Source: Gammaproteobacteria bacterium
GTDB taxonomy: Bacteria > Pseudomonadota > Gammaproteobacteria > Xanthomonadales > SZUA-5
DNA: 64,000 nucleotides
Direction of reading: 5' to 3'
Assembly (NCBI GenBank): GCA_030430155.1
Contig: JAUIFV010000006.1
Span: forward strand, 1 to 64,000
In this document: positions 11,101 through 17,325 of the stretch, piece after piece
Layout of the letters: every line of letters starts with the position of its first letter
Numbering within the stretch: position 1 is the stretch's first letter
Translations under genes and position numbers: made by a program
Notes under the pieces: generated by a model
Told to the model about the DNA's origin: nothing
The model's database searches: none
What the model saw: the letters and a program-made list of their open reading frames with translations, nothing else

Positions 11101-11411
11101 CACTAGGGACTCCCTGAACAATGCACGCGAGCCGCGTTGCGAGTCCAAATCGTCTGCCCCCGTCACCAACAAGCAGGGGCGCAGCCCCCGAGAGGCATAG
11201 TCATTCTATGTCCGAGGGCTGCAACGCCGCAGCAGGCGCTGGGCCTCCAGAACTCACGGGACAGCACCTGAGAAGCCCGCCAGCTGCGTTGGACGTCTTG
11301 CTCAGAGCGCAGGCTTTGACCTGCGACGCCCGCCTTGCTGGCGAACCCCCTTCTCAGCAAGACATGGAGGTGCCGTCGCGGCCACGTGCATTGTTCAGGG
11401 AGTCCCTAGTG
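11101..11411. mobile_element. MITE-like element, 27-bp perfect terminal inverted repeats
   Basis: cactagggactccctgaacaatgcacg (11101-11127) is the exact reverse complement of 11385-11411; no transposase ORF inside. Confidence 0.8.
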
Positions 11412-11575
11412 TGGTGAACCATTAATTCGTTGACTTTAGTTCCGATGGACAATTCCGGAGGCAAGGCGCGAGGAGGAGGCATAGCAGGGCTATGGTGACG
11501 ACGAGCAACGCAGCATTCAGGGAATTGGCTCACTAGCGCGGTGAATTCAAGGCATTAATGGTTCACCACACTAGG
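11405..11575. mobile_element. MITE-like element with 22-bp perfect terminal inverted repeats
   Basis: cctagtgtggtgaaccattaat (11405-11426) and attaatggttcaccacactagg (11554-11575); a shorter relative is at 28724-28819. Confidence 0.85.
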
Positions 11576-11684: not shown

Positions 11685-11999
11685 ATGTCCGCCAAGCCCA
11701 CCAACCGCCGCCGTTTTCTGGTCCAGTCCGCCGTCGCGCTGAGCAGCGTGCCGCTGGTCGCCGAGCTGCTGCGCCAGAATGCCCACGCCGCGCTGCCGAT
11801 GCTGCCCCTGGACAACGCCCAGGCCAAAGCCCTGCAGTATGTAGAGGACGCCAAGGAAACCACCAGTCCGGCCTTCAAGGAAGGCAGCAACTGCGCCAAC
11901 TGTCAGCTGTTCGTCGCCGACACCGGCGCCTGCAACATCTTCCCCGGCTTCGCCGTCACCCCCGAAGGCTGGTGTGCCGCCTGGGCCTTGAAGCAATAA
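11685..11999 (+). CDS. High-potential iron-sulfur protein (HiPIP), Tat-exported
   Basis: Twin-Arg leader NRRRFL; Cys pattern NCANCQLF...GACNIFPG...GWCAAW. Confidence 0.92.
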   Translation: MSAKPTNRRRFLVQSAVALSSVPLVAELLRQNAHAALPMLPLDNAQAKALQYVEDAKETTSPAFKEGSNCANCQLFVADTGACNIFPGFAVTPEGWCAAWALKQ

Positions 12000-12230: not shown

Positions 12231-13142
12231 ATGACTATAGACAGCTATACGACGACGTTGCGCGGCAAGCGCGTCGTTGATTTCAAAATGGGCGACAAGG
12301 CCGGCGATACCGACGTCGTATATCGGCTCTGTCAGGAGTACGACTGCGAAGAGACCCAATCTGAGCTTCTCGATCATTTTCTGTCCCAGATCGATCCAGC
12401 GAAGCTTGAGGCGTTGGTCATCGGACCCTGGAGCGAAGCCTACGATGAGGGTCCGCAGGGCTATTTGGATTCGCTAGTAGAGCGGCAACCCCAACTGACC
12501 GGCTTAAAAGCGTTGTTTGTGGGCGACATGACCTTCGAGGACTGTGAGATCTCCTGGATCAATCAATGCCCATACAACGATCTGCTGGTCGCCTTTCCCG
12601 GGTTGGAGAGTTTGCGCATCAGAGGGACCATCGATCTGGTCCTCGAGCCTTTCGAACACTCGGAATTGCGCAGTCTGGCAGTGGAAAGCGGCGGAATGCC
12701 GCTGAGCATCCTCAATGCGATCGGCGCCTCGCGGCTTCCCGCACTCACCCACCTGGAACTCTGGCTGGGCGACGACAACTACGGCTACGACGCCACACTG
12801 CAGGACATCCAAAGGGTCATCGAGGCCACGCAGCCGCAGCGCCTGCGCTACCTGGGTCTGCGCAACAGCCAGGGCACGGACCAACTGGCAAGCTGGCTGG
12901 CCACCCAACCCTGGCTGGCCGGCCTGGAGACGCTGGATCTGTCTCTGGGCACGTTGGGCGACATCGGGGCCGAGGCGCTTTGCGCGAGTCCTCACATTAA
13001 TGGCTTGTCACGCCTGGACCTGAGCCACCATTACGTCAGCGATCAATGGCAGAGCAAGCTGAGGCAGCTTCCGCTGACGGTGGTGCTGGATGAGCCGATG
13101 GACGAGGACGATGGCGAGCGCTATGTCGCTGTCTCCGAATGA
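12231..13142 (+). CDS. STM4015 family protein (leucine-rich-repeat-like)
   Basis: LRIRG..., LTHLELWLGDDNYGYDATL, LRYLGLRNS, LETLDLSLGTLGDIGAEAL, LDLSHHYVSD, RYVAVSE C-terminus; gene order matches STM4011-4015 cassette. Confidence 0.85.
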   Translation: MTIDSYTTTLRGKRVVDFKMGDKAGDTDVVYRLCQEYDCEETQSELLDHFLSQIDPAKLEALVIGPWSEAYDEGPQGYLDSLVERQPQLTGLKALFVGDMTFEDCEISWINQCPYNDLLVAFPGLESLRIRGTIDLVLEPFEHSELRSLAVESGGMPLSILNAIGASRLPALTHLELWLGDDNYGYDATLQDIQRVIEATQPQRLRYLGLRNSQGTDQLASWLATQPWLAGLETLDLSLGTLGDIGAEALCASPHINGLSRLDLSHHYVSDQWQSKLRQLPLTVVLDEPMDEDDGERYVAVSE

Positions 13143-14279
13143 GTGGTGAATGATCACACGTGGATTCTGGTAGGACCACGCGACAGCCGCCGCATTGAGC
13201 TGATGCAGCGCGCGCTGATCGCTCAGGGGCACGGCCCTGCGCCGGTCGTCGATTACATCGATCTGCTGCAGGATCCAGATCGTCTCGCCGAGCAGGTTGC
13301 ACTGCATCCGCATGCGACCATCAAGCTGGAGTCGCCTGGGGAAGCAGCCGACCTGCATCATTGCTTGGTCGTCAGAGGCTGGGAGCTTACTGGCCAGCGC
13401 GGACCCCGACCGCAGCGGGCGCAACACGGCGAACTGCGTGATCAGCATCTGTGGTTTGCCGGATTTCGCGATTTGCTCGAAAGGCTCCCCTCGTCCCTTC
13501 GCTATCTCAATTCGCCCGAATCGCTGCTGCAGTTGATCGACAAGAGCGAGTGCCAACGGCGATTGCTGGACCACGGGGTCGCCGCCCCAGATTTCTATGG
13601 ACCGGTCACCTGCCACGAGCAGTTGCGCCTGAAGCTGCGCGAGGTGGGCTGCAGAGCGGCATTCGTGAAGGCCCGCTACGGATCTTCCGCGGCCGGCGTG
13701 CTCGCCTACCGGCAGGGCCCGATGGGCGAGGAGATAGTCACTACGTCCAGCGAGCTATGCCGGAATCGCGGCGAACTGCGCCTGTACAACAACCTCCGCT
13801 TGCGCCGCTACCGCGATTCTGACGATATCGCTGCGTTGGTCGACGCCATTGCCGGGCAGGGTGCCTACGTGGAGCGCTGGATCGCCAAACCCAGGGCTGG
13901 TCCACCGCATATGGGTAGCTTCGACATTCGCGTCGTAGCGCTAGACAGCAATCCGCGACACAGGCTGGCTCGGGTCGGCAAAGGTCCGATGACCAACCTG
14001 CACCTGGGCAACAAGCGAGCTGACGTGACTGCGGTCCTGGATCGCAGCGAGATTCGTGTGCTTGAACGCAGCGTGGCGAGCGTCGGCGCCGTGTTTCCGC
14101 GCTGCCGCGCGCTGGGCATCGACATCATCGTCCGCGGCTCGCGCTACTGGGTCGTTGAAGTCAATGGCTTTGGCGACCTGCTGCTGGGGCAGCGCTGGCT
14201 AGGCTTGGGCACGTACGAAGATCAAGCGCAATGGCTGGAACGCAACCCGCAGCGAGACTCTGCACCATGTCTGCACTGA
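13143..14279 (+). CDS. STM4014 family protein (ATP-grasp/RimK-like)
   Basis: GTG start next to the previous stop; FVKARYGSSAAGVLAY, YVERWIAKPR...FDIRVVAL, GIDIIVRGSRYWVVEVNGFGDLLL ATP-grasp motifs. Confidence 0.82.
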   Translation: MVNDHTWILVGPRDSRRIELMQRALIAQGHGPAPVVDYIDLLQDPDRLAEQVALHPHATIKLESPGEAADLHHCLVVRGWELTGQRGPRPQRAQHGELRDQHLWFAGFRDLLERLPSSLRYLNSPESLLQLIDKSECQRRLLDHGVAAPDFYGPVTCHEQLRLKLREVGCRAAFVKARYGSSAAGVLAYRQGPMGEEIVTTSSELCRNRGELRLYNNLRLRRYRDSDDIAALVDAIAGQGAYVERWIAKPRAGPPHMGSFDIRVVALDSNPRHRLARVGKGPMTNLHLGNKRADVTAVLDRSEIRVLERSVASVGAVFPRCRALGIDIIVRGSRYWVVEVNGFGDLLLGQRWLGLGTYEDQAQWLERNPQRDSAPCLH

Positions 14280-15091
14280 GCGATCCCAATATGAATGAGG
14301 TGGTGGGTCAGGACGATCTGGTGTTGATTACGCTCGATACACTGCGCTATGACGCTGCCCAGCGCTGCTTTGAAGAGGGCCGATTGCCCGTGCTGAGCCG
14401 TTTTCTGCCCGCCGAGGGTTGGGAAAAGCGTCACACGCCCGCTAGCTTCACCTACGCGGCGCACGCCGCCTTCTTTGCCGGTTTCCTGCCCACTCCGGCC
14501 GCCCCGGGTCCGCACTCGCGGCTATTCGCGCTGGCCTTCGAAGGCAGCCAATCAACCGCTCAACAGACCTTTGTTTTTCAGGGCAGTGACAACATCGTGC
14601 AAGGTCTGGCGCAGACCGGCTACCGCACCATCTGTATTGGCGGCGTCGGATTCTTCAACAAGCGCAATCCTCTTGGCTCGACATTGCCTGGACTGTTCGA
14701 TGAAAGCTACTGGAGTCCGCGCTATGGCGTGGCTGAACCGCGATCCACAGAGAATCAGGTGTCGTTTGCCTGCAGTCGCTTGAGCGAGGCGGATCTGAAT
14801 AAACAGCGCTGCTTCTTATTCATCAACGTTGCGGCTTTGCATCAACCAAATCGCTGCTATCTTCCGTCCAGTAGTGGCGATGATTTCGAGTCCCACTGCG
14901 CTGCATTGAGCTACGTCGATGGCGCGTTGAAGCCGCTGTTTGACTGCCTGAGAAAGCGCAACCGCAGCTTCGTTATCGTTTGCTCCGATCACGGCACCGC
15001 CTATGGTGAAGACGGCTACTACGGTCATCGTCTCGCACATGAGGTGGTCATGACCGTCCCCTACACCCATTTCCGCCTGAACCATGACTGA
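14267..15091 (+). CDS. STM4013/SEN3800 family hydrolase (alkaline-phosphatase/sulfatase fold)
   Basis: LVLITLDTLRYDAA, HTPASFTYAAHAAFFAGFLP, IVCSDHGTAYGEDGYYGHRLAHEVVMTVP. Confidence 0.85.
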   Translation: MSALSDPNMNEVVGQDDLVLITLDTLRYDAAQRCFEEGRLPVLSRFLPAEGWEKRHTPASFTYAAHAAFFAGFLPTPAAPGPHSRLFALAFEGSQSTAQQTFVFQGSDNIVQGLAQTGYRTICIGGVGFFNKRNPLGSTLPGLFDESYWSPRYGVAEPRSTENQVSFACSRLSEADLNKQRCFLFINVAALHQPNRCYLPSSSGDDFESHCAALSYVDGALKPLFDCLRKRNRSFVIVCSDHGTAYGEDGYYGHRLAHEVVMTVPYTHFRLNHD

Positions 15092-16442
15092 TCGCTCGCT
15101 CGGTGCGATGCTGCAGCTGCAGCCCTATCAAGCCTACTCCTACGCCTACCCGCACAAGTCCAGCTACCGAGCGCTAAAACCGTCCTTGGACCTGGAGGCG
15201 CTCTGGTCCGACGAAGACAAGCGCGCGCTGTTCCTGTACTTGCATATCCCCTTCTGCAGCTATCGCTGCGGCTTCTGCAATCTGTTTGCCTTGGCCAGAC
15301 CTGCCGCTGAGACGGTTGAACGCTATCTACATCAGATCGAGCAGCAGCTGCGGGTGACTGCAGCCGCGCTGGGGCCACATCAGTTCGCCCGCTTGGCGAT
15401 CGGCGGTGGTACGCCCAGCTACCTGCAGGAGGAGCAGCTGGCCAGACTATTCGCGGCGGTGGATCGCTACGCATCGATCGAGTTGGGCCGGGTCGGCGGT
15501 GGGATCGAGGTTTCGCCGGAGACACTGAGTGTTGAGAAGTTGCGGATTTGCCGCGACGCGGGGCTGGAGCGGGTCAGCATGGGTGTGCAGAGTTTCAACG
15601 ACACTGAGGTGCGGGCGCTGATCCGGCCGCAACAGCGCAGTGTGGTGGAGAGATCCATCGGATTGATCCGTGAACAGGGCTTCCCGATTCTCAATCTGGA
15701 CCTGATCTACGGAATCGAAGGCCAGAGTCGGCACAGCTTCCTGGCTTCGATAGAAAGTGCGCTCAGCTTCGCTCCGGAGGAGCTCTACCTCTACCCTCTT
15801 TACGTCCGTCCGCAGACCGGTCTGCAGAGGAGCCGCAGCGGTCGGCGTGTGCGCCTATTCGAGATCTTGCCGGAGCCAGTCGAAGACCGACTGTCGCTGT
15901 ACCAGGCCGGTCGCGAGTTGCTGATCTCGCGCGGTTATGAACAGGTGTCGATGCGCATGTTCACCGCGCCCGGCAGGTCCGGCCCCGCGACTCCCGACTA
16001 TCGCTGTCAGGATGACGGCATGGTTGGTGTCGGCTGCGGCGCGCGTTCGTACACTCGCCGGTTGCACTATTCCAGCGAGTACGGTGTCAGTCGCTCGTCG
16101 GTGGCCGATATCCTTGGCGACTACCTGCGCCGACCCAGCGAGTCCTTCGCCAGTGTGGATCATGGGTTCGTGCTTGATCTGGACGAAAGGCGGCGGCGCT
16201 ACCTGATCCAGTCGCTGTTGATTCGGCCCGGATTGAGTCACGCCGAGTACCGCGCGCGCTTCCACGACAGCTGCTATGCGCACTACCCGCAACTGCTGGA
16301 GCTGTTGGATTTCGAATTGGCTACCGATAGCGATGGCGTCATCTCGCTCTCGCCTCAAGGGCTGGCCAGAGCAGACACCATCGGGCCGTGGCTGGCTTCG
16401 TCGAAGGTGAACGAGTTGATGCAGGACTATGAATACGCCTAG
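15084..16442 (+). CDS. STM4012 family radical SAM protein (HemN-like)
   Basis: YLHIPFCSYRCGFCNLF radical SAM cluster, LAIGGGTPSYL, SMGVQSFND. Confidence 0.88.
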   Translation: MTDRSLGAMLQLQPYQAYSYAYPHKSSYRALKPSLDLEALWSDEDKRALFLYLHIPFCSYRCGFCNLFALARPAAETVERYLHQIEQQLRVTAAALGPHQFARLAIGGGTPSYLQEEQLARLFAAVDRYASIELGRVGGGIEVSPETLSVEKLRICRDAGLERVSMGVQSFNDTEVRALIRPQQRSVVERSIGLIREQGFPILNLDLIYGIEGQSRHSFLASIESALSFAPEELYLYPLYVRPQTGLQRSRSGRRVRLFEILPEPVEDRLSLYQAGRELLISRGYEQVSMRMFTAPGRSGPATPDYRCQDDGMVGVGCGARSYTRRLHYSSEYGVSRSSVADILGDYLRRPSESFASVDHGFVLDLDERRRRYLIQSLLIRPGLSHAEYRARFHDSCYAHYPQLLELLDFELATDSDGVISLSPQGLARADTIGPWLASSKVNELMQDYEYA

Positions 16443-17325
16443 CCACCTGACAGTGCTCTATCGCGGCAAGCTGAGTAGTTGCAACTACGCCTGCGACTAC
16501 TGCCCCTTCGCCAAGACCTACGACTCGCGCGCGGCGCTGGATGAGGACGCCGCGGACCTGCTGCGCTTTGTCGACTGGGTCGGCGAGCAGCCCCATGCGG
16601 TGTCGGTATTGTTCACGCCCTGGGGAGAGGGGCTGGTCCGAAAGCATTACCGCGAAGCCATGGTTCGCCTGAGTCGACTGGAGCATCTACGTCGCGTCGC
16701 GATCCAGACCAATCTATGTGTGGGTCTGCGCTGGTTGGACTTGGCTGACCACCGCAAACTGGCGCTATGGTGCACCTTTCATCCGTCTCAAGTGTCCCGC
16801 TCGGCATTTGTTCGGCGCTGTATGCAGCTCAGTCGGCGTGGGATTCGCTACAGCGTCGGGATGGTTGCGCTGCAGGCGCACATGGATGAGATCGACATGC
16901 TCCGCGCTGAAGTGCCTGTCGAAGTGCCGATGTGGATCAACGCCTATGACCAGCGGACGGCCGATTACTACAGCGAACAACAGGTCGAGCGATTGCAGGT
17001 TCTCGATCCACATTTTCGCTACAACCTTGATCCGGGCGACAGCAAGGGCGCTCCTTGTCGCACTGGGGAGGACGTAATCACTGTAGACGGCGAAGGCAAC
17101 GTGACCCGCTGCCACTTCGTCGCCGAACCATTGGGCAATCTTTACGACCAGAGCTATTTGGCCAAGCTGCAGCCGCGCGCGTGTCCGAACCGCTGCTGTG
17201 ACTGCTTCATCGGTTACGTCCATCGCAAGGATCTGCCCTTTCAGCGCGACTACGCGGAAGGCTTGCTGGAGCGCATCCGGTTGCCGCGGGTGAGCCGCGA
17301 AATGGAGAGATTCTCGACTTGGTAG
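16429..17325 (+). CDS. STM4011 family radical SAM protein with SPASM-like Cys-rich C-terminus
   Basis: CNYACDYCPF radical SAM motif; C-terminal CRTGEDVITVDGEGNVTRCHF...ACPNRCCDCFIGY. Confidence 0.88.
   Translation: MNTPSHLTVLYRGKLSSCNYACDYCPFAKTYDSRAALDEDAADLLRFVDWVGEQPHAVSVLFTPWGEGLVRKHYREAMVRLSRLEHLRRVAIQTNLCVGLRWLDLADHRKLALWCTFHPSQVSRSAFVRRCMQLSRRGIRYSVGMVALQAHMDEIDMLRAEVPVEVPMWINAYDQRTADYYSEQQVERLQVLDPHFRYNLDPGDSKGAPCRTGEDVITVDGEGNVTRCHFVAEPLGNLYDQSYLAKLQPRACPNRCCDCFIGYVHRKDLPFQRDYAEGLLERIRLPRVSREMERFSTW

Follow-up and report, generated by a model that had tools for sequence, protein, structure and literature searches.

The leucine-rich repeat (LRR) protein STM4015, encoded together with four putative enzymes in a five-gene operon (STM4015-STM4014-STM4013-STM4012-STM4011), ends in an invariant glutamate and may serve these enzymes as substrate or carrier, a reading to which we assign a probability of about one half. 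The operon lies intact and contiguous on the plus strand of a 64,000-nucleotide stretch, hereafter the window, of contig JAUIFV010000006.1 (assembly GCA_030430155.1) from a gammaproteobacterium of the SZUA-5 lineage. Salmonella locus numbers are so far the only names that the five families bear. The terminal Glu of STM4015 and the membership of STM4014 in the LysX/RimK clade of ATP-grasp ligases were each found by a test of its own and together form the central argument for STM4015 as carrier or substrate; with the invariant Glu, a set of genes so far anonymous becomes a pathway open to direct testing.

An invariant terminal glutamate and a LysX/RimK-clade ligase

All 35 distinct complete STM4015 proteins, as well as the solved Bacteroides member 2RA8, carry [SGAT]-Glu-COOH exactly before the stop; a 36th row was left out because its sequence breaks off where the locus ends. 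The 35 sequences span Pseudomonadota, Actinomycetota, Deinococcota, Bacillota, Bacteroidota and Cyanobacteriota, and the tail usually reads R-Y/F-V-A-V-S/G/A-E, preceded by an acidic linker. Counted from the stop, the relative entropy reaches 3.9 bits at position -1 and about 3.7 bits at -6 and -7, with 0.4-1.6 bits from -12 to -30. Every tail has an aromatic residue at -6 or -8, the Tyr at -6 being shifted to -8 in enterics and in Methylobacterium, and position -2 is occupied by S, G, A or T. A comparable C-terminal register is absent from the alignments of STM4014, STM4013 and STM4011, and STM4012 shows two conserved positions close to its end with the last residue not being fixed. In AlphaFold2 models built from seven close sequences the tail lies disordered outside the LRR fold, with a predicted local distance difference test score (pLDDT) below 50. 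The solved member 2RA8 (Q64V53_BACFR) from Bacteroides fragilis includes the tail YPMITE in its sequence; it is a structural genomics entry titled 'uncharacterized protein', the title naming no function.

The tail is also retained where STM4015 is duplicated or separated from its partners. In Deinococcus, Streptomyces, Nonomuraea and Embleya the LRR bodies of duplicated copies have diverged while their tails are nearly identical, and copies outside a cassette (in genome G366, Embleya, S. cadmiisoli and Calothrix), including those that share a replicon with a cassette but lie far away from it, keep it as well. The replicons searched encode one to four STM4015 genes and exactly one STM4014 each. 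The sequence-only reading of the window had proposed the LRR protein as scaffold or substrate, a proposal for which the invariant C-terminal Glu and the single ligase gene accompanying several LRR genes now provide good support.

Searching the PDB with a profile of STM4014 gave 1uc8 (LysX, E=1e-7), 3vpd, 5zct (RimK, E=4e-6) and 4iwx as first matches, LysX, ArgX and RimK being the best-matched ligases, and the D-x-R, R-x-S, TN and E-x-N residues align with those of the LysX/ArgX/RimK clade. By these similarities STM4014 is a distant member of this clade, the assignment applying at the level of the clade only; it does not appear to be LysX itself, as the GSWGR motif, which in LysX reads the EDWGE sequence of LysW, is absent from the protein of the window. 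A Foldseek search with a structural model of moderate quality returned many ATP-grasp folds, among them PsnB, a graspetide ligase, together with its precursor, as well as the ArgX:LysW complex, whereas the sequence profile favours LysX/RimK over PsnB. LysX attaches aminoadipate to the gamma-carboxyl group of the C-terminal Glu of LysW within the motif EDWGE (PMC10433800).

Radical SAM enzymes, STM4013 and a recurrent phosphatase

Both radical S-adenosylmethionine (SAM) enzymes retain an invariant cluster-binding motif. STM4012 resembles HemN, and two established identities were rejected: it scores 144.7 bits against a cut-off of 325 for true HemN (TIGR00538), its CxxxCxxCNL sequence being devoid of the fourth cluster Cys, and 153 against 205 bits for HemW (TIGR00539), the HNxxYW motif missing in all 19 sequences. 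STM4011 shows C-x12-G-x4-C followed by C-x4-C-x-C in 19 of 19 sequences, the first half of which fits the SPASM pattern (CX9-15GX4C) throughout while the second half is non-canonical, and the Pfam SPASM model remains below its cut-off. The C-terminal half of STM4011 matches SkfB, a SPASM peptide maturase (7e-5), and this similarity favours a peptide or protein substrate.

STM4013 was likewise rejected as a canonical formylglycine sulfatase. It has Thr62 in place of the Cys that is modified in these enzymes, where the formylglycine signature CxPxR (or SxPxR) would lie, and CxPxR was found in none of 22 family members. The Asp and His residues of the alkaline phosphatase superfamily are kept (D24, D241-H242-G243, H258), and judged from what is known of this superfamily the residues fit phosphoryl transfer rather than sulfate hydrolysis. 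The sequence-only reading had anticipated that the five proteins fall outside well-characterised families, which these comparisons bear out for HemN, HemW and canonical sulfatases alike.

A phosphatase of the Cof-type HAD-IIB family recurs next to STM4011, being fused to it in Bacteroides finegoldii (L016:7334-8896) and encoded directly downstream in E. coli (L035:9900-10598) and Salmonella (L014:9910-10644). It is probably a sixth enzyme of the pathway, and its fusion to or position beside STM4011 makes a phosphorylated intermediate plausible.

STM4013-like hydrolases are also encoded in other settings. A cluster conserved on actinobacterial plasmids (L013:4875-8324, L037:4846-8211) combines one with a MoaA-like radical SAM protein, a thymidylate-kinase-like protein, a small hypothetical protein and a NUDIX protein and has the appearance of a nucleotide-type pathway not yet characterised. 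Another STM4013-like hydrolase, encoded on a Ti plasmid of Agrobacterium (L015:7001-10143), has P-loop kinases and a GTP cyclohydrolase II-like protein as neighbours.

Cassette architecture, distribution and neighbourhood

The five plus-strand open reading frames noticed in the sequence-only reading were recovered at the same coordinates, and all five proteins exceed the curated NCBIfam cut-offs of the families to which that reading had assigned them (Table 1). STM4014 starts with GTG 13143 immediately after the TGA of STM4015, confirming that these genes abut. The overlaps at the four joints amount to 0, 13, 8 and 14 bp; the range of 8-14 bp given previously for the latter three holds if STM4013 starts at ATG 14267 and not at the upstream ATG 14231; it is beyond that point that the NCBIfam profile begins.

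Table 1. Genes of the STM4015-STM4011 operon and selected sequence features, in window coordinates
Feature	Position	Strand	Evidence
STM4015 family LRR protein, 303 aa; proposed substrate/carrier	12231..13142	+	NF038076, 314.6 bits (cut-off 275); AlphaFold2 model of LRR body; best Foldseek match 2RA8, E=3e-14
Acidic linker of STM4015, residues 287-296	13089..13118	+	Poorly conserved, 34-79% acidic at -9 to -17; low-confidence end of model
Conserved tail R-Y-V-A-V-S-E of STM4015, residues 297-303; proposed modification site Glu303	13119..13139	+	Glu in 35/35 complete homologues and 2RA8; tail pLDDT <50
STM4014 ATP-grasp ligase, LysX/ArgX/RimK type	13143..14279	+	NF038074, 304.1 bits (cut-off 175); profile matches to LysX 1uc8, RimK 5zct
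D261-x-R263 of the ATP-grasp domain	13923..13931	+	D261 invariant, R263 at least 90%; aligned with LysX D-x-R
E339-x-N341, presumed metal-binding motif	14157..14165	+	E339 at least 90%, N341 invariant; aligned with LysX E-V-N
STM4013 alkaline-phosphatase-superfamily hydrolase/transferase	14267..15091	+	NF038075, 398.5 bits (cut-off 250); Pfam Sulfatase 1e-8, Phosphodiest 1e-5
Thr62 at the nucleophile position of STM4013	14450..14452	+	Invariant in 22 homologues; aligned to catalytic Cys of choline sulfatase
STM4012 HemN-like radical SAM enzyme	15084..16442	+	NF006067, 554.9 bits (cut-off 380); profile matches to HemN 1olt, 2e-59, and methyltransferase NocN, 4e-37
CxxxCxxC [4Fe-4S]/SAM motif of STM4012	15255..15278	+	Invariant
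STM4011 radical SAM enzyme, SPASM-like C-terminal half	16429..17325	+	NF038073, 374.8 bits (cut-off 200); C-terminal match to SkfB, 7e-5
CxxxCxxC [4Fe-4S]/SAM motif of STM4011	16480..16503	+	Invariant

Plasmid and genome searches revealed the same gene order in Lysobacter, Xanthomonas, Salmonella, E. coli, Methylobacterium, Paenibacillus, Deinococcus, Streptomyces, Embleya and Nonomuraea. Because the order is shared across such distant genera the gene set is a genuine unit and not a product of chance. Intact cassettes occur in four phyla and a damaged one in a fifth, that of B. finegoldii, in which STM4013 and STM4012 are reduced to remnants. The families are co-inherited, each of the five passing its cut-off in the identical five of 199 genomes of the window's order. 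The gene set is conserved beyond the window, as the sequence-only reading had supposed.

The cassette is rare. Among 349 genomes of the phylum only the window's own passes the STM4015 cut-off, the weak sub-threshold matches looking like generic LRR proteins; two of the three with readable ends lack a terminal Glu and none of the three has the tail motif. At least 80% of an STM4013-4011 query was found in 154 of 5,426 E. coli genomes. One of these, isolate AHB18, represents a natural knock-out, IS1 interrupting STM4012 (L036:5811-7826). Two relatives have rearranged forms, with STM4013-4012-4011 convergent with STM4015-4014 at locus L040 and the order STM4013-4012-4011-4015-4014 at locus L041; in G366 STM4015 is on a contig separate from the other four genes.

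The STM4015 of the window clusters with those of Lysobacter and Xanthomonas (support 100/100) rather than with the copy of a congener (G386), pointing to horizontal transfer of a version differing from those in genus and family mates. Two relatives of the window genome, one from its genus and one from its family, have an STM4015 with an N-terminal WGR domain (L038:8500-9960, L040:4924-6132). Carriage by phages was rejected: no relative of STM4012 was found in the viral contigs searched, and the three records of a phage collection matching STM4013 were not counted as phage genes, two being fragments of 2-6 kb and one being titled as a Salmonella strain. An anti-phage defence system was also rejected, as the PADLOC models gave no match for four of the proteins and one weak partial match for STM4012 (PDC-M51A, 4e-5).

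At nine loci from three phyla (L009, L010, L012, L027, L030, L031, L032, L038, L040) the cassette or STM4015 is adjoined by a protein of about 98-109 residues (M-Y-R-x-G-D ... G-E-V-T-G-H, also termed YRQGD...GEVTGH) and a DUF6745 protein, the latter with a conserved C-terminus mostly reading Y-x-P-x-x-E-T/A. In G366 this pair accompanies the separated STM4015 and is absent from the stretch examined around the other four genes. A DUF6745 search of the window's genome gave no match, control genomes giving none either. At L041:6002-9946 the cassette adjoins genes of NAD metabolism, encoding a macro domain, an ADP-ribosylglycohydrolase, an NrtR-like repressor and an NMN (nicotinamide mononucleotide) adenylyltransferase/Nudix protein; a role in NAD or ADP-ribose metabolism, suggested by this neighbourhood alone and not seen elsewhere, was not adopted. 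In the window a high-potential iron-sulfur protein (HiPIP) gene (11685-11999, same strand; Pfam HIPIP 2e-18) lies about 230 bp upstream of the cassette, its product being a possible electron carrier. It is preceded by an inverted repeat of 32 nt (11405-11436 and 11544-11575, 91% complementary, spacing 107 nt). A possible shared repeat in neighbouring open reading frames was not confirmed. Going beyond the sequence-only reading, the Glu tail, the kinship of STM4014 with LysX/RimK, the recurrent HAD phosphatase and the DUF6745 and YRQGD neighbours are new here.

Proposed pathway, alternatives and known systems

We propose a model according to which the LRR body of STM4015 would serve as a docking platform, its flexible acidic C-terminal arm presenting the invariant terminal Glu. 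STM4014 would activate the carboxylate of Glu303 with ATP to an acyl phosphate and couple it to an amino acid or to a small molecule bearing an amine; the group so tethered, or the tail next to it, would subsequently be remodelled by HemN-like STM4012 and SPASM-like STM4011, and STM4013, together with the HAD phosphatase where present, would transfer or remove phosphate on the tethered group. The product may stay bound to the LRR protein or be freed by a peptidase encoded outside the cassette. Of the dedicated biosynthetic or modification pathway postulated in the sequence-only reading, the families and their linkage are confirmed, its product and chemistry remaining conjectural. Several observations weigh against STM4015 acting as carrier. 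The cassette encodes no releasing peptidase or transporter, STM4015 is not a homologue of LysW, and the ligase match is distant, the AlphaFold2 models of STM4014 having a mean pLDDT of 77 with the best of five models alone being good. Moreover, STM4013 may act on a free metabolite, since STM4013-like proteins are found also without STM4015, and the conserved C-terminus could be a mere docking signal.

This last point leads to a rather unlikely alternative: the tail would be no more than a signal, docked onto or recognised when the enzymes assemble or when protein is turned over, STM4015 would act as scaffold or regulator, and the product of the four enzymes would be a free small molecule. This reading would accommodate the LRR body being strongly conserved as well, the STM4013-like enzymes in nucleotide-type clusters devoid of STM4015 and the recurrent HAD phosphatase. 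However, the exactly fixed terminal residue speaks for the tail as substrate, as do the facts that STM4015 genes are duplicated while STM4014 is not and that known members of the ligase family act on a C-terminal Glu.

We also consider it unlikely that the cassette forms a ribosomally synthesised and post-translationally modified peptide (RiPP), the tail residues being the core behind a giant LRR leader, the SPASM enzyme crosslinking or modifying Tyr, Val or Arg and the ATP-grasp enzyme closing a lactam, lactone or other crosslink via Glu as in graspetides or pyrroloquinoline quinone. The similarity of STM4011 to SPASM proteins and SkfB, the appearance of PsnB with its precursor peptide among the top Foldseek matches of STM4014 and the aromatic residue of every tail would agree with this. 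Yet Glu alone is invariant, so that the moving Tyr and the variable -2 position offer no fixed crosslink partner, the sequence profile of STM4014 prefers LysX/RimK to PsnB, a peptidase or exporter is missing from the cassette, and two phosphatase-type enzymes would be left unexplained. Plain poly-amino-acid tagging of STM4015 such as oligoglutamylation, the radical enzymes having some other target, is very unlikely: RimK is among the closest profiles to STM4014, but the strict co-inheritance of five families argues for one pathway.

The carrier model shares single elements with several known systems. RimK, the S6 glutamate ligase, is a close profile match to STM4014 and acts on a protein C-terminus, whereas STM4014 is inherited with four partners; RimK is not known to require such partners. 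Graspetide systems (PsnB, MdnC) and SPASM RiPP systems (SkfB) would be similar in that the tail of a peptide or protein is acted on by ATP-grasp and SPASM radical SAM enzymes; they differ in that STM4015 is a folded LRR protein with its last residue alone invariant, and in that there is no small leader-type precursor, exporter or protease. Pearlins (TglA/3-thiaglutamate, 3-thiahomoleucine), beside which amino-group carrier pathways have been set, would resemble the model in that a carrier peptide bears at its C-terminus a small molecule assembled with the aid of radical SAM chemistry (PMC9303977). Ligation would here be performed by an ATP-grasp enzyme and not by a PEARL, a LanB-like aminoacyl-tRNA ligase, none of which was found among the five proteins with Pfam and NCBIfam. 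In the open-access literature searched, two papers name any of these loci, each time in a table only, and no paper assigns a function; subscription literature lay outside this search and may hold prior work.

A close parallel is the LysW/LysX system (ArgW/ArgX, Vzb22), which likewise combines a protein having a conserved terminal Glu after an acidic stretch with a LysX/RimK-clade ATP-grasp ligase encoded beside it and later operon enzymes presumed to act on the tethered group. In contrast, STM4015 is an LRR protein of about 300 residues and LysW a small, Cys-rich zinc-binding protein of about 54 residues, the tail reads R-Y-V-A-V-S-E instead of EDWGE, and two radical SAM enzymes and an alkaline-phosphatase-fold enzyme stand in place of kinase, reductase, aminotransferase and releasing hydrolase. 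We tentatively suggest that biosynthesis on a carrier protein, or the formation of a protein-bound cofactor, occurs here in a new class, in which an LRR protein would bear a group built by radical SAM enzymes on its C-terminal Glu and one enzyme set would serve several carriers per cell. Were this the case, LRR scaffolds and radical SAM chemistry would be added to carrier-protein biosynthesis on a terminal Glu, in a pathway that a minority of E. coli strains possess, as do Salmonella, Xanthomonas, Streptomyces, Deinococcus and others.

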